From positions 364,119 through 428,118 of the forward strand of contig NZ_KQ410732.1 in the NCBI RefSeq assembly GCF_001262505.1: DNA of 64,000 bases. The letters run 5' to 3'. How positions within the stretch are numbered: position 1 is the first letter of the stretch; each line of letters begins with the position of its first letter. The notes under the pieces are model-generated. The model was not told where the DNA came from. It searched no databases and saw nothing but the letters and a program-made list of their open reading frames with translations. Positions 38,568-54,903 of this stretch are shown here, piece after piece. The position numbers and the translations under genes are program-made. This DNA comes from Shinella sp. SUS2. GTDB lineage: Bacteria; Pseudomonadota; Alphaproteobacteria; Rhizobiales; Rhizobiaceae.

Positions 38568-38846
38568 TCATTCGCCCCCTGCTGCACGGACCGGGCCATG
38601 CTGTCTCATGATGAGCGTGGCCTGGCGGCCCTGGCCATATGGATACTTTTGGCCCGACCCTGTCAAGCTGGCCCCCGTGCGCGCATTTTCCGGCCGGCAA
38701 ACCTTGCTCCGGCCACGCGATAAAAACTGTCGCCAGGGATGGGCCAGGCAGCAGCAAGTGTCGGAAGAGGATCGAAATACGGCAGCCCCTTTGCCGCATC
38801 CGCCGCTACAGTTCTGGCATGTGAGGAGACATCGGAGGGGAGGACG
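38568..38846. promoter_or_regulatory. Divergent promoter region between lrp-like and permease genes
   Basis: A 279-base gap holding the two divergent promoters. A GATAAAAAC stretch around 38720 is the only AT-rich patch on the permease side. No classical Lrp-type operator can be named by eye. A strong GAGGGGAGGACG ribosome site ends the region before the permease ATG at 38847. Confidence 0.4.
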
Positions 38847-40340: not shown

Positions 40341-41209
40341 AGATCCTCGTCGGACTTTCCGCCGACCAGGGCGGGCAGGAGGCGCTCGCGCTCGGCGCGG
40401 TGCTGGCCCGCTCCTGCAAGGCCTCGCTCGTCGCCTGCACGGTGACGCCCGATACCTGGGGGCATCCCTCGCCGGCACGCGTCGACGGTGAATATGGCAG
40501 CTTCCTTGCCCGGCACACCGCCACGCTGCAAGCCGAGGCGAAGGCATCGCTTCCTGCCGATGTCACGGCGGAGTTCCTTGCCGTTTCCGCCTCCTCGGCC
40601 CGCGAGGGCCTGATCCGGGCCGCCTCGGAAACCGGTGCGGACTGCCTCGTGCTCGGCTCGGCGCGCGAGGCTCCGCTGGGCCGTTTCGGCGAAGGGGGCG
40701 TTACGACGGAACTGCTGCGTTCGGCGCATCTGCCGATCATGGTGGCGCCGCACGGCTATTCGGCCGGGCCCGAGACCCGCATCCGTCGCCTCAGCGCCGC
40801 CTATTCGGGTTCGTCCTCCGCGCCCGACATCGTCGCCCGCAGTGCGGCGCTCGCCCATGACTATTCGGTGCCGCTGCGTCTCGTCACCTTCGTGGTGCGC
40901 GACAAGCAGATGTATCCGACGGGTGCCGGCTACGATGCGGAACAGTTCGTTTCCAACGTGCTGCGCGAGCAGGCGCGCGATGCGCAGACGGCCTTGCTTG
41001 CCGGGCAGGCGGGGCTCTCCGCGGAGATCGCGGATGGGGCGAGCTGGAAGGCGGCGTTCGAGTCGCTCGACTGGCAGGATGGCGAAGTTCTCGTGCTCGG
41101 CTCCAGCAAGCTCGGGCCGCTGCTGCGCGTCTTCCTCGGCTCGAATGCCCGCAAGATCGTGCACAATGCACCGGTGCCCTGCCTTATCCTGCCGCGCGGC
41201 GAAGAATAA
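40337..41209 (+). CDS. Universal stress protein family protein (tandem UspA domains)
   Basis: 290 residues made of two UspA-like domains (about 1-140 and 150-290). The first ends with VLGSAREAPLGRFGEGGVTTELLRSAHLPIMVAP cut in parts, the second with VLVLGSSKLGPLLRVFLGSNARKIVHNAPVPCLIL (in parts), both typical UspA nucleotide-binding ends. It is coupled to the permease gene by an ATGA overlap; UspA proteins next to APC permeases are thought to modulate transport, which is plausible here. Confidence 0.87.
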   Translation: MKILVGLSADQGGQEALALGAVLARSCKASLVACTVTPDTWGHPSPARVDGEYGSFLARHTATLQAEAKASLPADVTAEFLAVSASSAREGLIRAASETGADCLVLGSAREAPLGRFGEGGVTTELLRSAHLPIMVAPHGYSAGPETRIRRLSAAYSGSSSAPDIVARSAALAHDYSVPLRLVTFVVRDKQMYPTGAGYDAEQFVSNVLREQARDAQTALLAGQAGLSAEIADGASWKAAFESLDWQDGEVLVLGSSKLGPLLRVFLGSNARKIVHNAPVPCLILPRGEE

Positions 41210-41306: not shown

Positions 41307-42260
41307 ATGACGACAAGAACCTTCAACCAGCCGCTCGGCGGCAACGAAATGCCGCGCTTCGGCGGCCCCGCCACCATGATGCGCCTGCCGACGCAGCCGA
41401 CCGCCGAGGGACTTGATGCCTGCTTCGTCGGCATCCCCATGGATATCGGCACGTCCAACCGTCCGGGCACGCGCTTCGGGCCGCGGCAGATTCGCACCGA
41501 GAGCTGCATGATCCGCCCCTACAACATGGCCTCGCGTGCCGCCCCCTTCGAAAGCCTGCAGGTGGCCGACATCGGCGACGTGGCCATCGACACCTTCAAC
41601 CTGCCGAAATGCGTCGACATCATCACCGATGCCTATCGCGGCATCATCAAGGACGGCTGCATCCCGCTGACGCTCGGCGGCGATCACACGCTTTCCTATC
41701 CGATCCTGCGGGCGATGGCGGAAAAATACGGCCCCGTCGGCCTCATCCATGTCGATGCCCATTCGGATATCAACGAGCACATGTTCGGCGAACCTATCGC
41801 CCATGGCACCCCGTTCCGTCGCGCCGTCGAAGCCGGCGTGCTCGACACCAAGCGCTGCATCCAGATCGGCGTGCGTGGCACCGGCTATGCGGCCGACGAC
41901 TTCGACTGGTCCCGCGAACAGGGTTTCCGCGTGGTGCAGGTGGAGGAGTGCTGGCACAAGTCGCTGACGCCGCTGATGGAGGAAGTCCGCGCACAGATGG
42001 GCGACCGGCCGGTCTATCTCTCCTTCGACATCGACAGCCTCGACCCGTCGATCGCGCCCGGCACCGGCACGCCTGAAATCGCCGGCCTCAACACCATCCA
42101 GGCGCTCGAAATCATCCGCGGCTGCTGGGGGCTCAACCTTGTCGGCTGCGACCTCGTCGAGGTCTCTCCGCCCTATGACCCCTCCGGCAATACGGCGATC
42201 ACGGCGGCGAACCTTCTCTTCGAAATGCTTTGCGTCCTTCCGGGCGTGCAGAGGCGATAA
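41307..42260 (+). CDS. Ureohydrolase: agmatinase / guanidinobutyrase-like
   Basis: 317 residues of the arginase/agmatinase family with every manganese ligand present: GGDHTLSYP, HVDAHSDIN and SFDIDSLDPSIAPGTGTP. It hydrolyses a guanidino compound to an amine and urea. Annotation pipelines would call it SpeB/agmatinase, but the next two genes encode a 2-ketoarginine decarboxylase-like TPP enzyme and an aldehyde dehydrogenase, so 4-guanidinobutyrate (GbuA activity, giving GABA and urea) is the better guess. A GGAGGAAGAAAA site precedes the ATG. Compare the degenerate arginase-like domain in the racemase at 49366. Confidence 0.92.
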   Translation: MTTRTFNQPLGGNEMPRFGGPATMMRLPTQPTAEGLDACFVGIPMDIGTSNRPGTRFGPRQIRTESCMIRPYNMASRAAPFESLQVADIGDVAIDTFNLPKCVDIITDAYRGIIKDGCIPLTLGGDHTLSYPILRAMAEKYGPVGLIHVDAHSDINEHMFGEPIAHGTPFRRAVEAGVLDTKRCIQIGVRGTGYAADDFDWSREQGFRVVQVEECWHKSLTPLMEEVRAQMGDRPVYLSFDIDSLDPSIAPGTGTPEIAGLNTIQALEIIRGCWGLNLVGCDLVEVSPPYDPSGNTAITAANLLFEMLCVLPGVQRR

Positions 42261-42262
42261 AA

Positions 42263-43885
42263 ATGGCAGACACCCGATTGACCACTGGCGAATACCTCGT
42301 CCGTCTCCTGGAATCCTACGGCGTCGAATTGATCTTCGGCATTCCGGGGGTTCACACGGTCGAACTCTATCGCGGCCTGCCCGCGACCAACATCCGCCAT
42401 ATCACGCCCCGCCACGAGCAGGGCGCAGGCTTCATGGCCGACGGCTATGCCCGCGTGACCGGCAAGCCGGGTGTCTGCTTCATCGTCACCGGCCCCGGCA
42501 TGACGAACATCGCCACCGCCATGGGCCAGGCTTACGCCGACTCCGTGCCGATGCTGGTCATCTCGGCGGTCAATTCCCGTGGCGAACTCGCCATGGGCCA
42601 GGGCCGCCTGCACGAGCTGCCCTCGCAGCGCAACCTCGTTTCCGGCGTTGCCGCCTTCAGCCACACGCTGCTCGACCCTGCGCAGCTTCCCGAGGTGATG
42701 GCGCGTGCTTTCACCGTCTTCAACTCCGCACGCCCGCGCCCGGTCCATATCGAAATCCCGCTCGACGTCATCGTCGCGGAGGCGCAGCACCTTTCGGCAG
42801 ACGCATGGCCGCTGCCCGGCCGCGCCGCCGCTGATCCCGCGGCCATTGAAAAGGCCGCCGCGATCCTCAAGGCCGCAAAGCGCCCGATGATCGTTGCCGG
42901 CGGCGGGGCTGCCGATGCGGCGGCCGAGATTGCCGCTATTGCCGAAAAGCTCGATGCGCCGGTCTTCATGACCATCAACGGCCGCGGCATCCTGAAGCCG
43001 GGTGACCCGCGCACCATGACCGGCAATCTCAGCATGCCGCCGCTGCTGGAAGAGCTGGCCGCCAGCGACGCGGTCCTCGCCATCGGCACGGAATTCGGCG
43101 AGACGGAAATGTATCCCGAGCCGAAGGCGCTGACCTTCGGCGGCCCGCTGATCCGCATCGACATCGACCCCGCGCAGATCGTCACCGGCCTGCGCGCGGA
43201 CGTGCCGATTGCCGCCGATGCGAAACTCGCCGCCGCCAGCCTCAACGCCGCCCTCGGCGACGCGCGGCCGGCCGGCGAAGGCGCGGCACGCGCCAAGGCC
43301 GTGCGCGAGAAGGTCGCGGCCTTCCTGTGGCCCGCCTGCCGCACCCATGGCAGGCTGATGGAGGTGATCACCCGGGCGCTGCCCGACGCCACCGTTGCGG
43401 GCGACCAGACCGAGCCGGTCTATGCCGTCAACCAGTTCTACCAGGCGCCGCAGCCGCGCTCGTTCTTCAACTCTTCCACCGGCTACGGCACGCTCGGCTA
43501 CGGCCTGCCGGCCGCCTTCGGCGCAAAACTCGGCGCGCCGAACCGGCCCTCCGTCTGCCTGATCGGCGACGGCGGCCTGCAATTCTCCGTGCAGGAACTG
43601 GCGAGCGCCGTGGAGGCTGGCATCGCGACCGCCGTGGTCATCTGGAACAACGCCAGCTACGGCGAGATCAAGGCCTTCATGGCCGAACGCGACATCCCGC
43701 AGATCGGCGTCGACATTTTCACGCCCGATTTCGTGGGCCTCGCCAAGGCACTCGGCTGCGAAGCCTCGCGCCCAGCCTCGCTCGCGGAGCTGGAAAGCGA
43801 GCTTGCCGCCTCGGCAAAGCGCAAGGTGCCGACCGTGATCGAAATCCAGGCGGGCTCCCCGCTTGCCGCAGCCCTGACGGCGTGA
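42263..43885 (+). CDS. aruI: Thiamine-diphosphate enzyme, 5-guanidino-2-oxopentanoate decarboxylase (AruI-like)
   Basis: 540 residues, acetolactate-synthase-like three-domain ThDP enzyme. The catalytic glutamate lies in ITPRHEQGAGFMADGYAR near residue 53 and the ThDP/Mg motif GDGGLQFSVQELASAVEAG through NNASYG is near 434-460. Starts two bases after the ureohydrolase stop. AruI decarboxylates 2-ketoarginine to 4-guanidinobutyraldehyde in the arginine transaminase/dehydrogenase pathways; the flanking ureohydrolase and aldehyde dehydrogenase support this over acetolactate synthase or benzoylformate decarboxylase. The symbol is assigned on context and general similarity. Confidence 0.8.
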   Translation: MADTRLTTGEYLVRLLESYGVELIFGIPGVHTVELYRGLPATNIRHITPRHEQGAGFMADGYARVTGKPGVCFIVTGPGMTNIATAMGQAYADSVPMLVISAVNSRGELAMGQGRLHELPSQRNLVSGVAAFSHTLLDPAQLPEVMARAFTVFNSARPRPVHIEIPLDVIVAEAQHLSADAWPLPGRAAADPAAIEKAAAILKAAKRPMIVAGGGAADAAAEIAAIAEKLDAPVFMTINGRGILKPGDPRTMTGNLSMPPLLEELAASDAVLAIGTEFGETEMYPEPKALTFGGPLIRIDIDPAQIVTGLRADVPIAADAKLAAASLNAALGDARPAGEGAARAKAVREKVAAFLWPACRTHGRLMEVITRALPDATVAGDQTEPVYAVNQFYQAPQPRSFFNSSTGYGTLGYGLPAAFGAKLGAPNRPSVCLIGDGGLQFSVQELASAVEAGIATAVVIWNNASYGEIKAFMAERDIPQIGVDIFTPDFVGLAKALGCEASRPASLAELESELAASAKRKVPTVIEIQAGSPLAAALTA

Positions 43886-43895
43886 GGTGACGACG

Positions 43896-45341
43896 ATGCG
43901 GCACCAGCTCTTCATCGACGGTCGCTGGCAGGATCCCGTCGAGCCGGGCCGCATTCCCGTCTTCGATCCCTACCGCGGCACCGTCTATCATGAGGTCTCC
44001 GCCGGTGGTCCGGCGGATGTGGACAAGGCTGTTGCCGCCGCGAAGGCCGCGTTCCCCGCCTGGCGCGATGCCGGCGGGCGCGGACGCGCCCGTTATCTCG
44101 CGGCCATCGCCGCACGGTTGACCGAGCGCGCCGAAGAGCTGGCGCGCCTTTCCTCCCGCAACAACGGCAAGCCGCTTGGCGAGGCGCGCATCGACATGGC
44201 CGATGTGGCCGCCTCCTTCGCCTACTATGCCGAGCAAGCCATCGCCTTGCAGGAGAGGCAGGACGCGGATGTCGCGCTGCCCGACGACGGTTTTCACGCC
44301 CGGCTGCGGCAGGAGCCGGCGGGTGTGGCAAGCCTCATCGTGCCGTGGAACTTTCCCCTCGTGACGACCTCCTGGAAGGTCGCGCCGGCGCTTGCCGCAG
44401 GCTGCACGGTGGTGCTGAAACCCTCGGAGATCACGCCTGTCGTGGAGCTGGAACTCGGCGCGATTGCCGAGGACGTGGGCCTGCCTGCCGGCGTGCTCAA
44501 CATCATCACCGGTACCGGCGAGCGCGTCGGCGCGCCGATGACGACGCATCCGGATGTCGCCAAAATATCCTTCACCGGTTCGAACGCCGTCGGCGCCCGC
44601 GTCATGGCGGCCGGCGCGCCGGGCGTCAAATCGGTCAGCCTGGAGCTCGGCGGCAAATCGCCCATCGTGGTCTTCGCCAATGCGGATTTCGACGAGGCGG
44701 TGGACTGCGTGCTCGGCGGCATCTTTTTCAATGCCGGGCAGATGTGTTCGGCGACATCGCGCCTTCTGGTGGAAAGATCGATTGCGCCGAAGCTAATAGA
44801 CGCCATAATCGCCGGAAGCCGGGCGCTGAACCCCGGAGATCCGCTCGACGAGGGGACGACGATCGGTCCGATCACCATGAAGGCGCAGCACGACAAGGTG
44901 CTTTCCTACATCGAACGCGGCAAGGCCGAGGGCCTGACATTGCTTGCGGGCGGCGGAAAGCCGGCCGCGGCCGGTGACGGCTGGTTCGTCGAGCCGACGA
45001 TTTTCGGCGACGTGCCGACGACCAGCGCGCTCTGGCGCGAGGAGATATTCGGGCCGGTGCTCTGCATCCGCACTTTCGAGAGCGAAGAGGAGGCGATCGC
45101 ACTCGCCAACGACTGCGACTTCGGCCTCGTCGCCACCGTTGTCAGCGGCGACGACGTGCAGGCGAACCGCGTGGCAAACGCCATCGAGGCCGGTCACGTC
45201 TGGATCAACAGCCCGCAGGCGATTTTCGTGCAAACGTCCTGGGGCGGCTTCAAGGCGAGCGGCATCGGCCGCGAGCTCGGGCCCTGGGGCATGTCGTCCT
45301 ACCTTGAAGTCAAACACGTCACGTCACGCTTGAAACGTTAA
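43896..45341 (+). CDS. NAD(P)-dependent aldehyde dehydrogenase (KauB/betaine-aldehyde type)
   Basis: 481 residues. Catalytic Cys in NAGQMCSATSR near 283 and the general-base Glu in SLELGGKSPIVVF near 249, with cofactor segment PWNFPLVTTSWKVAPALAAG. TGAGGTGA five bases upstream favours ATG 43896 over GTG 43887. In this operon it would oxidise 4-guanidinobutyraldehyde to 4-guanidinobutyrate, the substrate for the ureohydrolase, completing the three-step block 41307-45341. Confidence 0.9.
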   Translation: MRHQLFIDGRWQDPVEPGRIPVFDPYRGTVYHEVSAGGPADVDKAVAAAKAAFPAWRDAGGRGRARYLAAIAARLTERAEELARLSSRNNGKPLGEARIDMADVAASFAYYAEQAIALQERQDADVALPDDGFHARLRQEPAGVASLIVPWNFPLVTTSWKVAPALAAGCTVVLKPSEITPVVELELGAIAEDVGLPAGVLNIITGTGERVGAPMTTHPDVAKISFTGSNAVGARVMAAGAPGVKSVSLELGGKSPIVVFANADFDEAVDCVLGGIFFNAGQMCSATSRLLVERSIAPKLIDAIIAGSRALNPGDPLDEGTTIGPITMKAQHDKVLSYIERGKAEGLTLLAGGGKPAAAGDGWFVEPTIFGDVPTTSALWREEIFGPVLCIRTFESEEEAIALANDCDFGLVATVVSGDDVQANRVANAIEAGHVWINSPQAIFVQTSWGGFKASGIGRELGPWGMSSYLEVKHVTSRLKR

Positions 45342-45363: not shown

Positions 45364-46914
45364 ATGTCGAAAAAGAAGAAAGATCGGAAGAAAGACGAGA
45401 AGAAACAAAAGAAGCGCGACAAGCGCCAAAAACGCTCCAGGAAACATGAGGGGTACATCATGGAAACCATTCGCAACGTTGCCGATCTGCGCGTCGTCAT
45501 GCATCGCAACGAACGTCCGATCTATTTCATCTCGGCGACGAACTTCAACCTGATCGGCATCGACGAATGGGTGCGGAACTTCAAGTTCGTCAGCTATATC
45601 GACTGCTTCGACGGCCGCCATCCGAACGTCTTCGTCCCCTCCGAAATCCCCCATGCCGAATTCGAGAGCATCGAGGATATCAACAACTACCTGCTGCAGC
45701 ACAAGGAAGTCATCGACTACATCACGAAACGCGGTGGCCGTGCCGTCGCCACCTTCCTGATGTTCGACGAGACGACGGAAGAAATCTGCAAGGAACTCGG
45801 CATCGAGATCTGGTTCCCCAGGGCAAAACTGCGCCAGCGCTGCGACAACAAGATGGAGACCGTGCGCATCGGCAACAAGGCCGACGTGCCCTCCGTGCCG
45901 AACACGCTCGCCCCCGCGCGCACCTATGAGGAGCTGCTGGAGTCAGCGAAGAAAGCCGGCATCGGCAAAGACCTCGTCGTGCAGACCGCTTTCGGTGACA
46001 GCGGCCACACCACCTTCTTCATCGCGAGCGAGGAGGACTACAACCGTCACGCCGCGGAGATCTCGGCGGAAGACGAAGTCAAGATCATGAAGCGCATCAA
46101 GTGCCGCGGCGCGACCATGGAGGCCTGCACGACGGCATCCGGCACGCTCGTCGGCCCGCTCCTGACGGAAGTCGTCGGCCAGCCGGCGCTGACGCCCTAC
46201 AAGGGCGGCTGGTGCGGCAACGAGATCTTTCCGGGCGCGTTTTCGGAAAAAATCCGGGCCAAGGCGCGCGACATGGCCTACCGCTTCGGCAACCAGCTTC
46301 GCGAGGAAGGCTATCGCGGCTATTTCGACCTCGATTTCCTCATCGACGTCGAGGACAACGAGGTCTATCTCGGCGAACTCAACCCGCGCATCTGCGGCGC
46401 CAGCTCCATGACCAACCACGCCGCCTTCGCCTATGCCGATGCGCCGCTCTTCCTGTTCCACCTGATGGAGTTTTCGGGCATCGACTACAAGATTGACGTC
46501 GAGGAGCTGAACGACCGGTGGGCGCGAAAGGAGTTCATTGATTCCTGGGCACAGGTGGTGATCAAATCCACCGAAGACCTTGTCGACATCGTCACCCATG
46601 CGCCGTCGTCGGGCATCTACCGCATGGCGCCGGATGGCAGCGTGTCCTATGATCGCTTCGATTATCACCGCCAGGCGATCGAAAGCGACGAGGAGGCGTT
46701 CTTCCTGCGCATCACCGGTCCCGGCGACTACCGCTACGAGGGTGCCGACCTCGGCATCCTCATCACACGCGGGCGGGTGATGAACGACGAGTTCGAGCTG
46801 AACGAACGCGCCAGCAACTGGATCAAGGGTATCAAGCGCCTTTATGCCAGCAAGCCGCTCACCGAGATCCAGCGGGACGAAGCGCCGGAAGCCGGCTCGT
46901 TCAAGATCCTGTAG
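45364..46914 (+). CDS. ATP-grasp family ligase with lysine-rich N terminus
   Basis: 516 residues from ATG 45364. Residues 1-30 are almost all Lys/Arg/Asp/Glu (13 Lys, 6 Arg). An in-frame ATG at 45460 with GAGGGG seven bases upstream would give a 484-residue protein without this tail, so the true start is open. The core has ATP-grasp features: a pre-ATP-grasp domain, VVQTAFGDSGHTTFF as the glycine/serine-rich loop, and the Mg-binding end GYFDLDFLIDVEDNEVYLGELNPRICGASSMTNHAAF (parts; Glu and Asn of GELNPR). Such enzymes join a carboxylate to an amine or other nucleophile. Genomes often label it biotin carboxylase, but no biotin partner is present. It is followed six bases later by an Ntn amidohydrolase, so a ligation/hydrolysis pair is suggested. 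Substrate unknown. Confidence 0.82.
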   Translation: MSKKKKDRKKDEKKQKKRDKRQKRSRKHEGYIMETIRNVADLRVVMHRNERPIYFISATNFNLIGIDEWVRNFKFVSYIDCFDGRHPNVFVPSEIPHAEFESIEDINNYLLQHKEVIDYITKRGGRAVATFLMFDETTEEICKELGIEIWFPRAKLRQRCDNKMETVRIGNKADVPSVPNTLAPARTYEELLESAKKAGIGKDLVVQTAFGDSGHTTFFIASEEDYNRHAAEISAEDEVKIMKRIKCRGATMEACTTASGTLVGPLLTEVVGQPALTPYKGGWCGNEIFPGAFSEKIRAKARDMAYRFGNQLREEGYRGYFDLDFLIDVEDNEVYLGELNPRICGASSMTNHAAFAYADAPLFLFHLMEFSGIDYKIDVEELNDRWARKEFIDSWAQVVIKSTEDLVDIVTHAPSSGIYRMAPDGSVSYDRFDYHRQAIESDEEAFFLRITGPGDYRYEGADLGILITRGRVMNDEFELNERASNWIKGIKRLYASKPLTEIQRDEAPEAGSFKIL

Positions 46915-46920
46915 GGTGCC

Positions 46921-47937
46921 ATGGACCTCCAGTTTGAAGCCATCGACGAAGACAGACCCGGCCCGAAATGGCGCCGGGTGTTCGATCGTCACTGGCACGC
47001 CTACAGCCGCTGGTTCGTGCGCGACGGGGTTCGTTCGCGCCCGACCTACTTCATGAGCCTCAAGGCGCTGCGCAGCCACATGCCGGAGCTGCTGCCGACT
47101 TATGAGGCGATCGTCGAGGCGGCCGGCGGCGGCGATCTCGAAGCGCGGTTCCTGTCCATGTGGTGCCCGCCCTTCTATGTCGGCGGCTGTTCGCAGGCGA
47201 TCGTCACCGGTAAGGAACCGGCGCTGATCCGCAACTACGACTACAGCCCGCGCCTGCTCGAAGGCACCTGGCTCGCCTCGCGCTACAACAAGCGGGTGGT
47301 GGCGGTGGTCGATTGCCTGTGGGGCGTGCTCGACGGCATCAACGAGGATGGGTTGGCGGTCTCGCTCTCCTTCGGCGGGCGCACCGCCGCGGGGCAGGGT
47401 TTCGGCATCCCGGTCGTGCTGCGCTACGTCCTGGAATTCGCCAGCACCACGGCGGAAGCGGTGGCGATGCTCCAGCGCATTCCCGTGCACATGTCCTATT
47501 CGATCGCCGTCATCGACCGGCAGGACAACCACGCGACGGTCTATGTCAATCCGGATCGCCCGGCCGAAGTGGTGGAGCGGCGCGTCAGCACCAATCACCA
47601 GCACGGCGTCGAATGGGCCCGCCATGCCGAGACCACCAAATCGGTGGAGCGCGAGGCGGCGCTGGAAAAGTCGCTGGCGGGATCGGCGGATGTCGAAAAG
47701 GTGCTGTCCGGCTTCCTGCGCCCGCCGGTCTACCAGACGTCCTACGGGCGCGGCTACGGCACGCTCTACACGGCCGTCTACCGGCCGCTCGATGCTTCGG
47801 TGGAGCTGGTCTGGCCCGGCGCGGTCTGGCGGCAATCCTGCGCCGAATTCCACGACGAGGTGCGCATCATCCGTTTCAACGACGGGGATTCCGGCGGCTT
47901 CGCGCCGACCTTCAAGCAGGGCGCGGTCAGCAGTTAG
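46921..47937 (+). CDS. Ntn-hydrolase, C45-like acyltransferase/amidohydrolase
   Basis: 338 residues. It resembles the C45 (isopenicillin N acyltransferase-like) and linear-amide C-N hydrolase group: the likely autocatalytic nucleophile is Cys90 in YVGGCSQAIV, followed by the conserved RNYDYSPRLLEGT and LWGVLDGINEDGLAVSLSFGG. Self-cleavage before Cys90 would give a small alpha and a large beta chain. It acts on an amide bond in a small molecule. Placed directly after the ATP-grasp ligase and before a D-amino-acid dehydrogenase, it may cleave the conjugate formed by the ligase. An imperfect palindromic repeat follows the stop codon. Confidence 0.82.
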   Translation: MDLQFEAIDEDRPGPKWRRVFDRHWHAYSRWFVRDGVRSRPTYFMSLKALRSHMPELLPTYEAIVEAAGGGDLEARFLSMWCPPFYVGGCSQAIVTGKEPALIRNYDYSPRLLEGTWLASRYNKRVVAVVDCLWGVLDGINEDGLAVSLSFGGRTAAGQGFGIPVVLRYVLEFASTTAEAVAMLQRIPVHMSYSIAVIDRQDNHATVYVNPDRPAEVVERRVSTNHQHGVEWARHAETTKSVEREAALEKSLAGSADVEKVLSGFLRPPVYQTSYGRGYGTLYTAVYRPLDASVELVWPGAVWRQSCAEFHDEVRIIRFNDGDSGGFAPTFKQGAVSS

Positions 47938-48060: not shown

Positions 48061-49308
48061 ATGAAAGTAGTCGTTCTGGGGGCCGGCGTCGTCGGCACGG
48101 CGGCGGCATGGTATCTGTCGAAGGACGGCCATGACGTGACCGTGCTGGAGCGCCACGAGGACGTGGCGCGCGGCACCAGCCAGAGCAATGCCGGCCTCGT
48201 TTCGCCGGGCGATTCCACCGCCTGGGCCTCGCCCGCCGCGCTCACCACCTTCATCAAATCGCTGTTCCGCTCCGATCTCGGCATCAAGGTGCGCTTCAGC
48301 CTCGATCCGCAGTTCATCTCCTGGTGCCTGCGCTTCCTCATGCAGTGCACGCAATCGCGCGCCCATGCCAATACCGAAGTCAAGCTGCGGCTGGCCTTCT
48401 ATGCCCGCGAGTGCATCAACGCGCTGCAGCAGGAAACCGGCATCTCCTACGACGACCGGCGCAAGGGCATCCTCTATTTCTACCGCTCGCAGCAGAGCAT
48501 GGATGCCGGCGCCAAGCATATGCAGTACATCGCCGACCGCGGCCTTGCGATCGAGGTGGTCGACCGCGAGCGGCTGGTGGCGCTGGAGCCCGGCCTTGCC
48601 GCCGTCAAACACCAGCTTGCCGGCGGCGTCTATTCGTCGATGGACCAGACGGGCGACTCCTCGCTCTTCACCTGCAGCCTTGCCGAGCAGGCGCGGGTGC
48701 GCCATGGCGTCGACTTTCGTTTCAACACGGTTGTCACCGGACTGGATGTGCAGGGCAACAGGGTCGGGGCCGTGCTGACCGACAAGGGGCCGGTCGCCTG
48801 CGACGCGGTCGTGCTGTCGCTTGGCCCCGAGAGTTCACTGCTCGCCCGCAAGATCGGGATCGACGTGCCCGTCTATCCCGTCAAAGGGTATACCGCGACG
48901 CTCCCGATCGATGCGGACAAGGGCCCGACCATGGGCGGCGTCGACGAGGACCGGCTGATCGCCTATTCGCGCCTCGGCAACCGTCTGCGTCTTGCCTCCA
49001 CCGCCGAATTCGCCGGCTACGACCGCTCGTTCAAACCCGCCGACTTCAAAACCATGTTCCGGACGGCGCACGACCTCTTCCCCGGCGCCATCGACGAGAC
49101 GAAGGCCGTGCTCTGGTCGGGCCTCAGGCCCATGATGCCGGGCTCCGTGCCGGTGCATGGTCGAGCACGCTACGAAAACCTCTTCCTGAATACCGGCCAC
49201 GGCCATGTCGGCTGGACCATGGCCTGCGGCTCGGGAAAGCTTGTCTCCGACCTCGTCTCCGGCCGCAGGCCCGACATCGACACGGCGGGGCTGCTCTATC
49301 GGAATTGA
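48061..49308 (+). CDS. FAD-dependent D-amino-acid dehydrogenase (DadA/DauA-like)
   Basis: 415 residues. The Rossmann motif VVVLGAGVVGTAAAWYLSKDGHDVTVLER starts at residue 3 (read in parts), and GTSQSNAGLVSPGDSTAWASP plus the C-terminal GHGHVGWTMACGSGKLVSDL are hallmarks of DadA. GTGAGGGGAGC precedes ATG 48061. It oxidises D-amino acids to 2-oxo acids, passing electrons to the respiratory chain. Next to a racemase and a 2-ketoarginine decarboxylase-like enzyme it is best read as a D-arginine dehydrogenase, though D-alanine or other basic D-amino acids are possible. Confidence 0.88.
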   Translation: MKVVVLGAGVVGTAAAWYLSKDGHDVTVLERHEDVARGTSQSNAGLVSPGDSTAWASPAALTTFIKSLFRSDLGIKVRFSLDPQFISWCLRFLMQCTQSRAHANTEVKLRLAFYARECINALQQETGISYDDRRKGILYFYRSQQSMDAGAKHMQYIADRGLAIEVVDRERLVALEPGLAAVKHQLAGGVYSSMDQTGDSSLFTCSLAEQARVRHGVDFRFNTVVTGLDVQGNRVGAVLTDKGPVACDAVVLSLGPESSLLARKIGIDVPVYPVKGYTATLPIDADKGPTMGGVDEDRLIAYSRLGNRLRLASTAEFAGYDRSFKPADFKTMFRTAHDLFPGAIDETKAVLWSGLRPMMPGSVPVHGRARYENLFLNTGHGHVGWTMACGSGKLVSDLVSGRRPDIDTAGLLYRN

Positions 49309-49309
49309 G

Positions 49310-49349
49310 CCTTTACCGGAAAGTGGACCCGGTTTCGTCCGGAAATGCG
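49310..49349. repeat. Dispersed palindromic intergenic element, copy 2
   Basis: Shares the core AAAGTG..CCGGTTT.GTCCGGAA.TGCG with the element at 47940-47982. It fills nearly the whole 57-base gap between the D-amino-acid dehydrogenase stop and the racemase start. Confidence 0.5.
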
Positions 49350-49365
49350 ACAACAAGGGATTGCC

Positions 49366-51159
49366 ATGTCCGATCCGCAAATCTCCATCGACCTCGCCCG
49401 CATCGAACACAATGCCCGCACCGTCGTTGACCTCTGCCGCGCCTCCGGCATCACGCCCTTCGGCGTCACCAAGGGCACCTGCGGCATGCCGCAGGTGGCG
49501 CGTGCCATGCTGCGCGGCGGCGTCAGGGGCATTGCCGAATCCCGCTTCGAGAACATCCGCCGCCTGCGCGATGCGGGCATCGACTGTCCGATCATGCTGT
49601 TGCGCAGCCCCCCGCTGACGCGTGTGGAAGAGCTGGTGCGCACCGTCGACATCAGTCTGCAGTCGGAGCTTCAATTGATGCGCGAGATTTCGCGTGTCGC
49701 CGAGCGGCTGGGCCGGGTGCACGACATAATCCTGATGATCGACCTCGGGGATCTTCGTGAGGGCATCTGGCCGAACGATCTGGTGCCCACCGTGGAGGCC
49801 ATACTGGAGCTGCCGGGCGTGCGCATTGCCGGCGTCGGCACGAACCTCACCTGCTTCGGCGCAATCATTCCGACCCGGGAGAACCTGACCCAGCTCGTCG
49901 CCCATGCGCAGACGGTGGAGATCATGACCGGCCGGCCGCTCGATTGGGTTTCCGGCGGCAACTCTTCCTCGCTGCCGCTGCTGCTGGCCGGCGGCATGCC
50001 GTCCGGCATCAACAACCTGCGTGTCGGCGAGGCGATCCTCCAGGGTGGCCGCGACACGTTCCTCACCGAACCCTGGCAGGCGCTCGACCGCGACGCCTTC
50101 GAACTCACCGGCGAGCTTCTGGAGGTGAAGACGAAGCCCTCCCTGCCGATCGGCCAGTCCGGCATCGACGCCTTCGGCAACGTTCCCGTCTTTGTCGACG
50201 AGGGAGACCGGCTGCGCGGCATCGCCAATATCGGCCGTGAGGACGTCATCGCCGAGGGGTTGATCCCGACGCGGCCGGGCGTGCGGGTGCTCGGTGCTTC
50301 CAGTGACCATCTGGTGCTCGATCTCACCGAGGCCGACCCACCCCTTGCCGTCGGCGAAAATGTCAGCTTCCGCATGAACTACGGTGCGTTGCTCACGGTC
50401 ATGACGTCAGAATATGTGGAGAAGGTTCCGATGCGGGATGTGCGCGAGACGGGCGAGGCGAAGACCTATGCGATCGAGACGGACGCGATCGGCGGTGCGC
50501 TCGTGGTGGTGCAGGATGTTGCCCAGCGTATCGAGCATCTCGGCTTCGAGCGGGGGGCGGAGGATGCGGATAAGACGCTCACGCTCTCCATCCGCGCACG
50601 CAAGCGGGATGTGCTGCCGTTCGTGGAGGAGGCTGGCCGTCGGCATGATGCGCTCGGCCTCATCTGGATCGATTCCGATGCAGCGATGATGCCGGATGGC
50701 GAGGCCGGCCTGCCGCCACCGGAAAACGCCGTGCTCAGCCGTATGCTCACCTGCCTGCCGCCCCATATCGCGCCGGAAAACATCGTCCTGATCGGCCTGC
50801 GCAATGCGGCGCCGGAGGAGGCGGCGGTGCTGAAGGCCTTGCGCCTGCGTGTCTTCACCATGGCGGAAATCGATGCGGTAGGCCTGCGCCAGGCGATGCG
50901 CGACGCGATCACGCTCGCCTCGGCCGGCACGCGCGGCTTTCACCTGTGTTATGCGCCGACCGCCACCGACATGTCCGGCTGGAGCGGCGGCATCGGCGGC
51001 ATCACGGTGCGCGAGACCCATTCGGCAATGGAAATGGCGGCGCTCAGCGGCAAGTTGCGCTCGCTCAGCATTTCCGGCATTGATGCCGCGCTGCCATCGC
51101 CGATCGGCGCGGAATGCGCCAATTTCATCCTGTCGGCTTTCGGCAAAACCATTCTTTGA
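49366..51159 (+). CDS. Alanine/ornithine-racemase-type PLP enzyme fused to a degenerate arginase-like domain
   Basis: 597 residues, far longer than the ~360 of the alanine/ornithine racemase family. Residues 1-~350 are a fold-type III PLP racemase with Lys36 in FGVTKGTCGMPQVA and SGGNSSSLPLLLAGG near 200. Residues ~400-597 align with the C-terminal two thirds of arginase: ALGLIWIDSDAAMMP ~ arginase's W-V-D-A-H-T-D, IVLIGLRNAAPEEAAVLKAL, RVFTMAEIDAVGLRQAM, FHLCYAPTATD ~ the S-F-D-x-D-x-x-D-P segment, and GGITVRETHSAMEM. Only one metal ligand survives (Asp436); the others are Asp438 for His, Ala440, Ala530 and Thr532 for Asp, and the GGDHS block is gone. So the domain should not hydrolyse arginine but might bind it. 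AAGGGATTGCC upstream fixes the start. In context it is probably an arginine (or ornithine/lysine) racemase feeding the D-amino-acid dehydrogenase. Confidence 0.82.
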   Translation: MSDPQISIDLARIEHNARTVVDLCRASGITPFGVTKGTCGMPQVARAMLRGGVRGIAESRFENIRRLRDAGIDCPIMLLRSPPLTRVEELVRTVDISLQSELQLMREISRVAERLGRVHDIILMIDLGDLREGIWPNDLVPTVEAILELPGVRIAGVGTNLTCFGAIIPTRENLTQLVAHAQTVEIMTGRPLDWVSGGNSSSLPLLLAGGMPSGINNLRVGEAILQGGRDTFLTEPWQALDRDAFELTGELLEVKTKPSLPIGQSGIDAFGNVPVFVDEGDRLRGIANIGREDVIAEGLIPTRPGVRVLGASSDHLVLDLTEADPPLAVGENVSFRMNYGALLTVMTSEYVEKVPMRDVRETGEAKTYAIETDAIGGALVVVQDVAQRIEHLGFERGAEDADKTLTLSIRARKRDVLPFVEEAGRRHDALGLIWIDSDAAMMPDGEAGLPPPENAVLSRMLTCLPPHIAPENIVLIGLRNAAPEEAAVLKALRLRVFTMAEIDAVGLRQAMRDAITLASAGTRGFHLCYAPTATDMSGWSGGIGGITVRETHSAMEMAALSGKLRSLSISGIDAALPSPIGAECANFILSAFGKTIL

Positions 51160-51181
51160 TCAACAACATGGGAGATTTCCG

Positions 51182-51520
51182 ATGATCAAGCGTATCAAGC
51201 CCGGCAAGCGGTTCTGCGAAGCCGTCGTCGTCAACGGCGTCGTCACCACGGCCGGCGTCACCGGCGATGGTGCCGACACCGTCGCCCAGACCCGCGACAT
51301 CCTCGCGACCATCGACGGCCTGCTGGCCGAAGCCGGCACCTCCAAGGCCAAGCTGATCAGCGCCAACATCTGGCTGCGCGACATTGCCCATTTCGCCCAG
51401 ATGAACGAAGTCTGGGACCAGTGGGTCGACCCGAACAACCTGCCGGTCCGTGCCACGGTCGAGGCGCGCCTTGCCGCACCGGAACTGCTGGTCGAAATCC
51501 AGGTCACCGCGCTCGTCTGA
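51182..51520 (+). CDS. RidA family protein
   Basis: 112 residues, short RidA/YjgF protein. Visible features: GVVTTAGVTGDGADTVAQTRDILATIDGLLAEAG (parts), ISANIWLRDIAHFAQMNEVWDQWV and the conserved end NLPVRATVEARLAAPELLVEIQVTA with the catalytic arginine in P-V-R-A-T-V. It would clear imine intermediates made by the D-amino-acid dehydrogenase, a known RidA/DadA partnership. Last gene of the long operon; a 20-base palindrome follows. Confidence 0.9.
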   Translation: MIKRIKPGKRFCEAVVVNGVVTTAGVTGDGADTVAQTRDILATIDGLLAEAGTSKAKLISANIWLRDIAHFAQMNEVWDQWVDPNNLPVRATVEARLAAPELLVEIQVTALV

Positions 51521-51688: not shown

Positions 51689-52247
51689 GTGGGGGTGATC
51701 GTGTCCTGGTACGCGCATAGCACGGCAGACCAGAGCAAGGTGGACTGGCAGTTGCTCTCGGAGCATTGCTTCGGCGTCGCCGTCCTTGCCGCCGAAATGG
51801 CCAAACCGCTGGGCCTCGAACGCGCGGCCTTCTTCGTCGGTCTGTTCCACGACCTCGGCAAATACTGCATCGATTTCCAGCTGCGCCTCGAAGGCAGGGA
51901 TGTGCCGGTCGATCACTCGACCGCAGGCGCCCAGGTGCTGTCCGGGCTTGCGCAGGGTTCGGACAAGCTGGTGGCGCATCTCCTCGCCTATGCCATTCTC
52001 GGCCACCATGCCGGCCTGCCGGACTGGCTGAACGAGACGGATGCCTGCTGCAACATGCGCCTGAAGCGGCCGCTTGCGCTTGATCCCGCGTGGCAGGATG
52101 AGTTGAGGCCGGAAGTCTCCGACCTGTTGCCGGACATGGTGGCGCAGCTCCCGAAAACCCCGCCGGAGCAGGCTTTCGCCTTCGCCTTCATGACGCGGAT
52201 GATTTTCTCGTGTCTGGTGGACGCGGAGGCGTGGATTGAAACGTGCC
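51689..52247 (+). pseudogene. cas3: Truncated cas3 (HD-nuclease part), type I-C CRISPR remnant
   Basis: The opening ~180 codons match the N-terminal HD nuclease domain of type I-C Cas3: WYAHSTADQSKVDWQLLSEHCFGVA, then FFVGLFHDLGKYCIDFQ (HD motif), VDHSTAGAQVL, AILGHHAGLPDWL and FAFMTRMIFSCLVDA. A full Cas3 has roughly 750-800 residues and would continue with the helicase domain. Here, right after FSCLVDA, codons run into the sequence of a CRISPR repeat (shared 20 bases at 52223-52242) and the frame ends at 52301-52303 inside the next repeat. The junction carries a GCGGA stretch common to both partners. So the rest of cas3 and everything between it and the array is gone. The start may be GTG at 51689 or 51695. 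Confidence 0.88.
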
Positions 52248-52306
52248 GGCTGAATAGCCGAGCCCGCCCCAAGCAGTCGCCTCCTTGCGGAGGCGTGGAT
52301 TGAAAC
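52212..52306 (+). CRISPR. Collapsed type I-C CRISPR array: chimeric repeat, one spacer, one intact repeat
   Basis: The intact repeat is at 52276-52306, 31 bases: starts GTCGCCTCC, has a 7-bp stem CGCCTCC/GGAGGCG and ends GTGGATTGAAAC, the standard I-C form. Upstream, 52223-52242 is identical to the last 20 bases of that repeat, but the 11 bases before it (GTCTGGTGGAC) come from cas3 and cannot form the stem. Between them is a 33-base stretch (52243-52275), the right size for one spacer. After 52306 about 34 bases could be a further spacer, but no third repeat is recognisable. No cas1, cas2 or effector genes are near. Confidence 0.85.
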
Positions 52307-52354
52307 GACGCCACCGGCATGGGCTGGATGGTCGCCGTCTGGGGGGCGCCCCAG

Positions 52355-52392: not shown

Positions 52393-53709
52393 TCAGCCGG
52401 CCTTCAGTACGTCGGCAAGGGCGTCCACCAGCATGTCGGCGTTTTTGCGGGAGAAGACGAGAGGGGGGCGGATTTTCAGGATGTTGGCGTTGGGGCCGGA
52501 GGCGCTGATCAGGATGCGGCGGGCGCGCAGGCCGTTGACGATGCGCGCCGTCAGGGTGGCGTCGGGCTGTTTCGTCGTGGGGTCCGCGACGATCTCGACG
52601 CCGATGAAGAGGCCCGAGCCGCGGATGTCGCCGAGGGCCGGGTGGAGGCGGGAGAGCGTCTTGAGGCCGTCCATCAGGTATTGGCCGACATCGAGGGCAT
52701 TCTGCTGCAGGCCCTCCGTCCGGATGGTTTCCAGCACGGCCTTGCCGGCCGCGGCGGCGATGGGGTTGCCGCCGAAGGTGTTGAAGTAGCGGGCACGGGG
52801 GCCGAAGTCGGCGACGACTTCCGGGCGCAGCACGATGCCGGCCATCGGGTAGCCGTTGCCCATCGGCTTGCCGATCGTTACCATGTCTGGGGAGACGCCG
52901 TGGCGCTCGAAGCCCCACATGGTTTCGCCGGTGCGGCCGAAGCCGGGTTGCACCTCGTCGGCGACGAAGAGGCCGCCGGCTGCGTGGATCGCGTCCACGG
53001 CCGGTCGCAGAAACCCTTTCGGGCCGGCGAAGATGCCGTCGCTGGAAAAGATCGTGTCGGTGATCAGCATGGCCGGCTTGATGCCGTGACGCTGCAGGTC
53101 GGCGATGGCGGCTTTGACGTCGCGGCCGAACTTTTCCATCATTTCTTCCGGCGTGTGGCGGTAGCTGTCCGGCGCCGGTACGGTGCGCACATGCGGGCCG
53201 AGCGTCACGGATTCTCCAAGCGAGGGCGAGAATTCGGCGACCGCGCTCGTCAGGCCGTGATAGGCGAGTTCCGTCGCGATGATGCCGGTCCCGCCGGTGA
53301 CGAAACGGGCGATGCGCACGGCAAGGTCGTTCGCCTCGCTGCCGGTACAGGTGAACATCACCTGGCTGAGATCGTCCGGGAAGGTGGCGGTCAGCGCTTC
53401 GGCATAGTCGATGATGCCTTCGTGCAGATAGCGCGTATGGGTGTTGAGCACGGCGGTCTGGCGGGTGATCGCCTCGACGACGCGCGGGTGGCAATGGCCG
53501 ACCGAAGCGACGTTGTTGTAGGCGTCGAGATATCTTTCGCCGGCCGCGTCATAGAGGAAGACGCCTTCGCCGCGCACGAGATGCAGCGGCTTTTCGTAGA
53601 ACAGGCGGTAGGCGGGGCCAAGCACCTTCTCCCGGCGGGCGACCAGCACCCGTTCGCTCTCGTCGAGCCGCTCGAAATCCTCGCGCGAAAATGCATTCAC
53701 CATCGACAT
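52393..53709 (-). CDS. Class III aminotransferase-fold PLP phospho-lyase (ETNPPL/PHYKPL-like)
   Basis: 438 residues. YLDAYNNVASVGHCHPRVVEAI near residue 55 closely resembles the same region of human ethanolamine-phosphate and 5-phosphohydroxylysine phospho-lyases; LFVADEVQPGFGRTGETMWGFE and TIGKPMGNGYPMAG (PLP lysine) are class III features. It is encoded directly after, and two bases from, a hydroxylysine-kinase-like gene, so a phosphorylated amino alcohol made by that kinase is probably its substrate. Called aspartate aminotransferase family in many genomes. GAGG eight bases upstream supports the start at 53709 rather than 53703. Confidence 0.85.
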   Translation of the reverse strand: MSMVNAFSREDFERLDESERVLVARREKVLGPAYRLFYEKPLHLVRGEGVFLYDAAGERYLDAYNNVASVGHCHPRVVEAITRQTAVLNTHTRYLHEGIIDYAEALTATFPDDLSQVMFTCTGSEANDLAVRIARFVTGGTGIIATELAYHGLTSAVAEFSPSLGESVTLGPHVRTVPAPDSYRHTPEEMMEKFGRDVKAAIADLQRHGIKPAMLITDTIFSSDGIFAGPKGFLRPAVDAIHAAGGLFVADEVQPGFGRTGETMWGFERHGVSPDMVTIGKPMGNGYPMAGIVLRPEVVADFGPRARYFNTFGGNPIAAAAGKAVLETIRTEGLQQNALDVGQYLMDGLKTLSRLHPALGDIRGSGLFIGVEIVADPTTKQPDATLTARIVNGLRARRILISASGPNANILKIRPPLVFSRKNADMLVDALADVLKAG

Positions 53710-53711
53710 GG

Positions 53712-54761
53712 TCAGGCCTCGGAAAGGTTGGGCACGAGCCTCTTCAGCCCGGCCGGGGTAAGGTCGCCTACGTTCTGCAGGCCGCGCCAGGCGGTGGCGT
53801 GGTTGCGCATGATATAATCCCGGTTTTCCGGAAAGCGGGCGGAACGCCATTCGGCGATGATGATCGACATGGCGAGGCGGCAGCGCGTCAGGAGTGGCAG
53901 CAGCTCGATCTCGCCGGGTTCCAGCGCGCGCGCTGACAGGAAGCCGGCAAGGAAGGCGCCGGTGCGCGCCGCCCAATTGTCCGTCGCCAGATGATAGGAG
54001 AGGGCGACGGCGAGATCGTTGACCAGCGGCGCATGCACCATGTCGCCGAAATCGATGATGCCGACCACCCGTGTCGGTTCCGCCGGATCGAGCAGGATAT
54101 TGTGCGGATTGAAGTCGTTGTGGATGATCTGCCGCCGCGCGAGGCTGCTCATGGCGGGCAGTGCACGCTCGAATTCGGCGAGAATGGTTTCCACCCGCGC
54201 CCGGCGCTCGGGCGCGACATTGTCGACGACCGCGCAAAGGTCCAGCGTGTGGGAAATGTCCCACATCAATTTTCCGGCCGGCGGGCGGCCATCGTAGTTT
54301 TCGAGGCCAAGGCCGAGTTCCGCGAGTGCGCGGCCGACATTGCGGCTCTGTGCTTCCGATGCCGGCGTGCGATATTGCAGCTCACCGTCAAGGAAGGTGA
54401 GGAGGCGCACGATGCGCGGGCCGTCGCCGGTGGAAAGCGTGTGGCTCGGCCCACCCTCCGTCGTCAGGACGAGGCGCGGCACCGGCACGGCGGGGGCGGC
54501 GGCGGCAAGGTGCAGCAGGGCGCCGTCCTGGAATTCCAGAGCTGCAGGGTCTTCGGCGGGGTTGGCGATCTTCAGGACGAAGTTCGTGCCGTCGTTTCGC
54601 GTGAAGAGGAAAGTCTCGTCCCGCTCGCTGGAAAGCCGCTTCACGGTTCCAGCAAGGCCATAGATCGCCGCAACGGCGGCCTCGGCGTCGGGAAGCGCGG
54701 TCGCGCTCCAGGTTGCCGACATCGAATCCGTCTTCTTGTTTGCCGGCGCTGGCTGCGTCAT
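53712..54761 (-). CDS. APH-fold kinase, hydroxylysine kinase-like
   Basis: 349 residues of the aminoglycoside phosphotransferase/choline kinase fold. The Brenner box is RRQIIHNDFNPHNILLD with the catalytic aspartate, followed by VVGIIDFGDMVHAPLVNDLAVAL (metal-binding DFGD). Nucleotide-binding residues appear in ETFLFTRNDGTNFVLKIAN. CGGAG six bases before ATG 54761 favours this start. Pairing with a phospho-lyase is the arrangement known for hydroxylysine breakdown (kinase then lyase); many rhizobia carry the two as a fused protein. Real substrate could be another amino alcohol. Confidence 0.83.
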   Translation of the reverse strand: MTQPAPANKKTDSMSATWSATALPDAEAAVAAIYGLAGTVKRLSSERDETFLFTRNDGTNFVLKIANPAEDPAALEFQDGALLHLAAAAPAVPVPRLVLTTEGGPSHTLSTGDGPRIVRLLTFLDGELQYRTPASEAQSRNVGRALAELGLGLENYDGRPPAGKLMWDISHTLDLCAVVDNVAPERRARVETILAEFERALPAMSSLARRQIIHNDFNPHNILLDPAEPTRVVGIIDFGDMVHAPLVNDLAVALSYHLATDNWAARTGAFLAGFLSARALEPGEIELLPLLTRCRLAMSIIIAEWRSARFPENRDYIMRNHATAWRGLQNVGDLTPAGLKRLVPNLSEA

Positions 54762-54903
54762 GCTTGCTCCGTAGGCGCGGTTTCCCGCGGGTTTTTCGAT
54801 CCTTGCGCGCCGTCTGCCAACGACGGTGCCGGTGCGATTGCCGTCGCCCGGCATTTGGCAGAGGATGCTCCGTGACGGGTTCTACTTGAAACATATCAAA
54901 AAA

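Follow-up and report, generated by a model that had tools for sequence, protein, structure and literature searches.

The 64,000-nucleotide stretch of Shinella sp. SUS2 analysed here (contig NZ_KQ410732.1, positions 364,119 to 428,118 of the forward strand; hereafter the window) encodes at 49366-51159 (+), in a single open frame of 597 codons, a pyridoxal 5'-phosphate (PLP)-dependent racemase fused to a C-terminal relative of arginase. The 76 fusions aligned keep at most two of the six arginase metal ligands, whereas all of them keep a trio of acidic residues from the arginase subunit interface. We hold it an even call that the protein is an arginine racemase in which the dead arginase acts as an oligomerisation, possibly arginine-sensing, module. 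The fusion, its arginase descent, the lost ligands, the kept pocket residues, purifying selection and the gene row are established by the analysis; the arginine substrate, the sequence of pathway steps, oligomerisation and sensing are inferred. All coordinates are window positions, with the strand in brackets where assigned.

Two enzyme families in one polypeptide

The start codon at 49366 agrees with homologues beginning MSDPQ, MSGPQ or alike; the longest listed open reading frame (ORF) starts at 49345. Residue counts come from an alignment of 69 proteobacterial and seven Lentisphaeria fusions with 16 arginases and eight agmatinases. A first set of 69 distinct fusions, used for Lys36 and the cavity residues, comprises the different sequences among 72 full-length fusions, seven of these from genomes around the window's own; the 69 proteobacterial rows are that first set minus locus L102 plus L147. 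The protein is divided as follows.

49366-50433 (+): racemase part, residues 1-356, PLP-dependent alanine/ornithine-racemase type, fold type III (PF01168, NF040742, Foldseek)
49471-49473 (+): codon of Lys36, the expected PLP lysine; K in 69/69 distinct fusions
50434-51156 (+): pseudo-arginase domain, residues 357-597, much shortened at its start and matched by Pfam over 418-565

The racemase part matches Ala_racemase_N (PF01168) over residues 8-224 (6e-30), and the NCBIfam model of the ornithine racemase Orr (NF040742) spans residues 4-354 of 597 with 397.6 bits, under its curated cut-off of 480; three Lentisphaeria fusions (378-421 bits) also stay under it. Its length is about that of free-standing Orr, as nine uncut free-standing relatives have 350-357 aa. 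Structural similarity search of the AlphaFold2 model using Foldseek gave alanine racemases, D-threonine aldolases and one lysine racemase as top matches. In keeping with the family, Lys36 is presumably the PLP lysine. Judged by its sequence, the racemase half is a complete, ornithine-racemase-like PLP racemase, predicted to racemise ornithine or arginine. A sequencing or frame artefact is ruled out, as the same fusion recurs across independent genomes.

The C-terminal domain is, on sequence comparison, a relative of arginase. Pfam Arginase (PF00491) matches residues 418-565 (8e-11; 42 bits against a cut-off of 22), and the NCBIfam rocF arginase model (TIGR01229) matches residues 461-570 (47 bits, under its cut-off of 228). 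A single-sequence search found the Bacillus caldovelox arginase 1cev at 1.7e-12, and a profile of 11 fusions found arginases at 5e-31, with RecA (1e-4) as the one unrelated match among 45. Moreover, hhalign against six active arginases gave a probability of 99.7 (E 1e-25, 213 columns). A racemase joined to a metal-less arginase domain had been proposed in an earlier note on this DNA, and Pfam, NCBIfam and the strong profile-profile comparison bear it out. In the arginase-half tree, the fused domains fall within the arginase side with support of 100/100, and trees of this half exclude an agmatinase rather than arginase ancestry. Phages were also considered as a source of the domain, and 28 pattern matches in viral contigs, checked with the C-domain profile, contained no relative.

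The AlphaFold2 model of the fusion (predicted local distance difference test, pLDDT, 83.8; predicted template modelling score, pTM, 0.59) has eight strands alternating with helices over residues 366-591, and a second model, of the Lentisphaeria copy L102, reached a pLDDT of 77.6. The best 50 Foldseek matches listed for the whole model were of the racemase fold only, and the arginase fold is thus without confirmation by structure search. The model suggests that the domain is probably a whole but compressed arginase-type domain starting at about residue 357; the length of ~200 residues given in the earlier note fits the Pfam match, but not this earlier start.

Loss of metal ligands and catalytic residues

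The remnants of the arginase active site are located as follows.

50671-50685 (+): D436-S-D438-A-A440, remnant of the metal motif DAHxD; D436 is the sole original ligand
50953-50961 (+): A530-P-T532, remnant of the metal motif DxD
51076-51078 (+): Gly571, where the catalytic-site Glu277 is expected; Gly in 64/69 proteobacterial fusions, Glu in 7/7 Lentisphaeria fusions

The six ligands scored are those of GGDH, DAHxD and DxD; the arginases and agmatinases in the alignment were picked for visible metal motifs, so that their 6/6 ligands are by choice. All 76 fusions keep none to two. Among the 69 proteobacterial fusions, one ligand is kept in 53, two in 14 and none in 2, and among the seven Lentisphaeria fusions one is kept in 3 and two in 4. 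As none exceeds two ligands, the idea of an active arginase among the fusions found was rejected. The residues named in the earlier note (K36, D436, D438, A440, A530 and T532) all check out; the ligand loss that it described is conserved among homologues, and no copy keeping all metal ligands was found among the 76.

The sixth ligand position, His of GGDH, is replaced too, by Arg in 61/69 proteobacterial fusions, and is retained in 6/7 Lentisphaeria fusions. The first Asp of DAHxD is retained in 67/69 proteobacterial fusions and lost in 7/7 Lentisphaeria ones. Since the His of DAHxD is present in only 1/76 fusions and the first Asp of DxD in 0/76, the common ancestor of the fusions probably already lacked both. 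A reading of Glu550 as the catalytic guanidinium-binding Glu277 was rejected, since by residue count the Glu277 position is taken by Gly571 and Glu550 corresponds to the interface residue Glu256.

An acidic inter-subunit pocket is retained

The retained interface residues are listed below.

50872-50874 (+): Asp503, corresponding to Asp204 of human arginase I (Asp199 of B. caldovelox arginase); 69/69 and 7/7 fusions, 16/16 arginases, 0/8 agmatinases
51010-51015 (+): Arg549-Glu550, corresponding to Arg255-Glu256 of human arginase I; 69/69 and 7/7 fusions
51031-51033 (+): Glu556, corresponding to Glu262 of human arginase I; 69/69 and 7/7 fusions, 14/16 arginases, 0/8 agmatinases

The human numbering derives from the alignment of residues 463-576 with 164-282 of 1wva_A and holds if the five-residue gap falls between 503 and 550, a placement assumed to be as in the alignment with 1cev, where the counterparts are Asp199, Glu250 and Glu256. 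Asp503, Glu550 and Glu556 occur together in 76/76 fusions, 14/16 arginases and 0/8 agmatinases. In arginases, 57 columns are invariant (15 or 16 of 16), and eight of these persist in 99% or more of the 69 and in 7/7 Lentisphaeria fusions, namely three glycines and R180, E186, D204, R255 and E256 (R180 and E186 numbered by the reference arginase L024). The E262 column, invariant in 14/16 arginases, is kept in 76/76 fusions. Of 58 columns invariant in arginases, nine are fully kept, and the trio known from the literature falls entirely (3/3) among these nine (p 0.003, a value that takes no account of kinship between rows; ~0.004 if the six ligand columns are left out). Glu256 and Asp204 are reportedly, going by the title alone, the subject of a study on arginase oligomerisation and cooperativity.

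In residues 544-556, a stretch picked after inspection, 7/13 positions are invariant in the 69 sequences versus 14/164 elsewhere in 421-597 (Fisher p 1e-4). Such clustering of invariant residues in the interface stretch argues against the idea that the old catalytic cavity adopted a new metal-free role in ligand binding or catalysis. Tyr529 (68/69), Pro531 (67/69) and Ser437 (63/69) are near-constant in the cavity of the distinct fusions and would suit that idea, but the Lentisphaeria copies have different residues there, and we regard it as the least probable of the explanations weighed here.

Arg308 in the C-terminal tail of arginase bridges to Glu262 and, in the rat enzyme, to Asp204 of the next subunit, and the assembly of an Arg308Ala mutant is restored by guanidinium (PMC7925462). 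The B. caldovelox arginase, which is without Arg308, was found to have free L-arginine bound in the corresponding region (PMC7925462). The fusions stop 4-5 residues past a conserved Gly, level with B. caldovelox arginase (the profile ends at about residue 298 of 1cev), and so have no Arg308 tail. As the metal and substrate sites are lost and the acidic inter-subunit pocket is retained, the domain is most likely an oligomerisation module, possibly an arginine-sensing one. The domains would be linked either by free arginine in the pocket, comparable to that in B. caldovelox arginase, or by an Arg side chain from nearby, and this link would govern how the racemase assembles or how active it is. 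Arginine sensing is the least certain step of this proposal. Its narrowest form, in which the domain is retained solely for a second, inter-subunit arginine site and acts as the sensor by which an arginine racemase is assembled and activated, seems doubtful to us.

The strongest rival is a purely structural add-on, in which the dead arginase uses the old trimer interface to pack or stabilise the racemase, as a dimer or in some larger assembly, with neither ligand nor sensing. We rate it as a serious possibility, albeit on the unlikely side. It would account for interface residues that are retained while catalytic ones are gone, and many arginases are trimeric or hexameric (PMC6988801, PMC11271267). 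On the other hand, free-standing racemases without the domain exist (ten in the contig scan described below, thirteen class-wide and seven in the phylum of the Lentisphaeria metagenome-assembled genome, MAG), and the retained residues hold a guanidinium group in known arginases (PMC7925462).

Distribution, origin and decay of the fusion

A contig scan with six patterns gave 78 loci, of which 65 are full-length fusions, 3 are fusions that are incomplete or interrupted and 10 are free-standing racemases. The ten racemases, L095 and L100 (cut by contig ends) and L099 (interrupted) were dropped before counting, and the 65 retained loci are 64 proteobacterial ones and L102. Most scan fusions come from Mesorhizobium, Shinella, Labrys and other Hyphomicrobiales, with further ones in a Burkholderiaceae MAG, Thiofilum, Thiothrix and the Lentisphaeria MAG. 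Searched with a whole-length profile, the phylum of the Lentisphaeria MAG (387 genomes) yielded 7 fusions at E up to 1e-60, the Thiofilum order (63 genomes) 2 and the family of the Burkholderiaceae MAG (249 genomes) 2, the cut-off in the last two being 1e-80; the same fusion thus recurs in many genomes. Among 385 genomes sampled evenly from the window's class, the fusion was found only in the window's own, with a racemase-only match in 13 others, so that its distribution is patchy. Seven of 61 genomes from the window's surroundings, including its own and all of the same genus, have the full fusion.

Three plasmids or secondary replicons (0.5-2.2 Mb) also carry the fusion: NZ_CP016452.1 (labelled Sinorhizobium sp. 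RAC02), NZ_CP132312.1 (Shinella zoogloeoides) and NZ_CP084753.1 (Roseateles sp. XES5). The racemase bears the bare label 'alanine racemase' in two of the three plasmid records with the full fusion, and the third lists no gene.

The fused domains form one clade in the arginase-half tree (support 97/94). That tree held the wrong-frame or odd rows L021, L035, L157 and L168; a cleaned repeat that leaves these out, with fewer rows (44), again gave one clade (90/88). The racemase-half tree puts the fusions in two places, and a single clade is not rejected (approximately unbiased test, p 0.072). Proteobacteria were represented by 14 rows in the racemase-half and first arginase-half trees and by 13 in the repeat, where L041 was dropped as a duplicate. 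Given one clade for the arginase half and an unrejected single clade for the racemase half, one fusion event, partly spread by transfer, would be the simplest reading. We propose that an active arginase was joined, probably once, to an ornithine-type racemase, and that it then shed, as a C-terminal domain, its binuclear metal site and catalytic substrate site while retaining the acidic pocket.

The Pfam arginase scores are 204, 169 and 91 bits in three Lentisphaeria copies, 64 in Thiofilum, 56 in Pseudaminobacter and 42 in the window. Four of the seven Lentisphaeria copies match the model from position 2 or 3 to 279 of 280, and the remaining three from 68 to 263-269. Since those four still cover nearly the whole arginase model, the fusion appears to be old and to have decayed since. 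Such graded decay would also fit a vestige, left from an ancestor that was a bifunctional arginase/ornithine racemase (arginase converting arginine to L-ornithine, racemase L-ornithine to D-ornithine) and whose dead arginase lingers with little function. The racemase part is indeed closest to ornithine racemase, and an analogous domain in Fusobacterium is dispensable (PMC12826042). However, the fusion is full length in 64/67 proteobacterial fusion loci of the contig scan (two others being cut by contig ends), the pocket triad is present in 76/76, and no copy with a live arginase occurs among them. In addition, the C-terminal domain is under purifying selection, with a ratio of nonsynonymous to synonymous changes (pN/pS) of 0.14-0.39 in 13 gene pairs, compared to 0.06-0.24 for the racemase part. 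A vestige is the next-strongest rival after the structural add-on, and in our judgement an improbable one.

In G004, G012, G015 and G018 (loci L017-L020), all of the window's genus, the fusion survives only as 3'-end remnants of 36-108 residues adjoining the Rid gene. Surroundings were compared for two of the four: the 18 kb show no match to the operon genes upstream of the fusion, and genes downstream of it remain. The 3' ends are apparently scars left by a deletion of the operon at this site, as judged from these two loci.

Gene row and a proposed arginine route

The fusion gene stands in a row of genes on the same strand.

38739-40340 (+): amino acid permease, APC type, first of the row; start as listed by the ORF tool
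40337-41209 (+): universal-stress-protein-family (Usp) gene
41307-42260 (+): ureohydrolase of agmatinase/guanidinobutyrase type with metal motifs present, proposed 4-guanidinobutyrase (PF00491 315 bits, TIGR01230)
42230-43885 (+): 5-guanidino-2-oxopentanoate (2-ketoarginine) decarboxylase (NF005712 737 bits, cut-off 500); true start probably slightly inside the ORF
43887-45341 (+): aldehyde dehydrogenase, proposed 4-guanidinobutanal dehydrogenase (PF00171 541 bits)
45364-46914 (+): ATP-grasp protein, 'biotin carboxylase' model PRK06524 (NF005096 765 bits)
46921-47937 (+): C45-family acyltransferase/hydrolase (NF040521, PF03417)
48061-49308 (+): D-amino-acid dehydrogenase, DadA type (NF001933 466 bits)
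51176-51520 (+): Rid-family protein, proposed iminoarginine deaminase (PF01042)

With substrates assigned from the gene families, the row would lead from L-arginine via D-arginine, iminoarginine, 2-ketoarginine, 4-guanidinobutanal and 4-guanidinobutyrate to γ-aminobutyrate (GABA) and urea. The racemase, most likely acting on arginine, would supply D-arginine to the neighbouring D-amino-acid dehydrogenase, and the Rid protein, 2-ketoarginine decarboxylase, aldehyde dehydrogenase and guanidinobutyrase would carry the dehydrogenase product on. It has been reported that Rid2 and Rid3 proteins deaminate the iminoarginine produced by the D-arginine dehydrogenase DauA (PMC5619798).

An operon of arginine type, as the earlier note had it, finds support in these gene families and in the comparison of loci. 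The D-amino-acid dehydrogenase lies directly upstream in 60/63 proteobacterial fusion loci of the contig scan with room for one. Genes for the racemase, D-amino-acid dehydrogenase, 2-ketoarginine decarboxylase, aldehyde dehydrogenase and guanidinobutyrase stand in one row in the window and in Shinella, Labrys, Thiofilum, Thiothrix and Burkholderiaceae, and the core order hydrolase-decarboxylase-aldehyde dehydrogenase-dehydrogenase-fusion-Rid is found in the same five groups, with two to four intervening genes in some. The entire row is retained in Labrys; Thiofilum and Thiothrix have it in full minus Usp, with the ATP-grasp, C45 and permease genes coming first, and the Burkholderiaceae locus has no ATP-grasp, C45 or permease gene within 10 kb. 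A 2-ketoarginine decarboxylase is encoded somewhere in the genome in 15/16 fusion genomes examined.

The intact ureohydrolase encoded in the same operon raises a further explanation, namely that the dead subunit joins an active ureohydrolase, for example the operon guanidinobutyrase, and thereby brings racemase and hydrolase into one particle, for which MetCaCb of metformin hydrolase is a precedent (PMC11271267). This appears very unlikely, as the fused domain groups with arginases and the operon enzyme with agmatinases, and no partner was seen in 7/7 Lentisphaeria genomes, where the fusion was the sole PF00491 protein found (the genomes being possibly incomplete).

The ATP-grasp and C45 genes (45364-47937, +) are adjacent and accompany the operon to Thiothrix and Thiofilum; the pair suggests a side branch that forms and cleaves an amide. 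The Lentisphaeria loci (L102, L148-L153) have a gene setting quite unlike the proteobacterial operon.

Evidence on the other side

Several observations weigh against an arginine racemase with an arginase-derived oligomerisation module. Regarding the pathway, the decarboxylase is absent within 10 kb from 46/59 loci with 8 kb upstream, 43 of them Mesorhizobium, and present in 13/59; Aestuariivirga-type loci are without a hydrolase or Rid match, and the one Lentisphaeria genome examined has no decarboxylase. Lentisphaeria fusions adjoin an EamA-type transporter in 7/7 cases (adjacent or one gene off; three profile-tested, the rest by sequence) and an Lrp/AsnC gene in 4/7 (two profile-tested), which makes arginine a less certain substrate in that group. 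RidA and Rid1 proteins are reported to be inactive on iminoarginine (PMC5619798), and the Rid protein of the window is placed to family level alone.

Regarding the domain, the pocket residues were picked out once the invariant columns were known, and the aligned rows, mostly Mesorhizobium, are not independent. ETHSAMEM, one of the six contig-scan patterns, favours copies that keep Glu550 and Glu556; six further Lentisphaeria copies came from the whole-length profile and not from the scan patterns. The retained residues may serve trimer packing alone, free of ligand. A change of Glu278 breaks the B. caldovelox arginase hexamer (PMC11271267), and the Glu278 stretch is not conserved in the fusions. 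Moreover, the pTM of the monomer model is 0.59, the C-terminal domain evolves 1.1-3.2 times faster than the racemase part by pN/pS, and the analogous dead arginase in Fusobacterium is dispensable for the essential activity (PMC12826042). The arginine-binding or regulatory domain suggested in the earlier note finds partial support: the catalytic arginine site is destroyed, and the retained inter-subunit site hints at oligomerisation or a second arginine site instead of the former substrate site.

Comparison with known systems

The closest precedent is the Fusobacteriaceae ornithine decarboxylase/arginase fusion Oda, which likewise combines a PLP enzyme for a basic amino acid with an arginase at the C-terminus in which metal ligands are missing; the dead domain is kept across strains (PMC8503589, PMC12826042). 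Oda and the window fusion are compared here by architecture and published description. They differ in the PLP part, which in Oda is a decarboxylase of the aspartate-aminotransferase fold, unrelated to the alanine-racemase fold of the PF01168 half in the window. In addition, two Asp ligands are replaced in Oda (Ser609 and Asn713), compared to at least four of six in the racemase fusions, and Oda belongs to another phylum. Other dead arginases have been described in Trypanosoma brucei and as MetCb (PMC11271267, PMC10820115). MetCb of metformin hydrolase is similarly a ureohydrolase-family protein turned metal-free partner, but a separate polypeptide paired with an active ureohydrolase (PMC11271267), whereas the dead domain of the fusion is covalently part of a racemase. 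The racemase/arginase fusion itself had no report in the open-access literature among the matches listed, subscription papers being mostly outside that scope; the claim in the earlier note that the architecture is undescribed thus stands for the racemase version, but not for PLP enzyme/inactivated arginase fusions in general.

With clostridial Orr (NF040742) the racemase half aligns end to end, and free-standing relatives are 37-48% identical. Orr differs in being free-standing (nine uncut loci of the length given above), and the fusion scores 398 against the curated cut-off of 480. The C. difficile Orr acts in ornithine degradation (PMC8803604). Bacterial arginases (RocF, B. caldovelox 1cev) resemble the fusion domain in sequence, in the interface residues Asp199, Glu250 and Glu256, in the modelled eight-strand domain and in having no Arg308 tail, whereas the fusion domain is without the metal ligands and the Glu277-type residue, has a shortened start and carries the racemase. 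The DauA and 2-ketoarginine routes share with the gene row the dehydrogenase, Rid, 2-ketoarginine and guanidinobutyrate steps (PMC5619798, PMC2242806). DauA and DauB of Pseudomonas aeruginosa run from D-arginine to L-arginine, whereas the racemase here would feed D-arginine in.

Neighbouring genes beyond the operon

The region 51689-52307 contains a short gene (204 aa) with an HD domain matching Cas3c/Cas3 HD models, and its tail overlaps two identical 21-nt CRISPR-like repeats placed 64 bases apart (52223 and 52287); a related genome has three such repeats (L155, 12561-12728). Together, the HD gene and repeats resemble the eroded remains of a type I CRISPR system next to the operon. At 52393-54854 (-), two genes match opposite ends of PRK06148, a phosphotransferase covering 5-328 and a class III aminotransferase covering 575-1010 of its 1015 positions. 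The middle part is missing, and a single protein is thus split into a kinase-like and an aminotransferase gene.

Implications

Added to the fusobacterial example, the window fusion brings the kinds of PLP enzyme joined to a dead arginase to two, and the PLP folds of the two differ. Arginase accordingly seems inclined to turn into a non-catalytic companion of enzymes acting on amino acids. The family shows graded decay from a near-whole to a shortened arginase, in which catalytic residues are lost and the interface pocket is untouched, so that the role of dead arginases becomes testable by point changes. Together with its neighbours, it provides a proposed gene set for racemase-fed arginine catabolism in rhizobia and sulfur bacteria. 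If the domain were indeed an arginine sensor, L-arginine would enter the D-arginine route only when plentiful.

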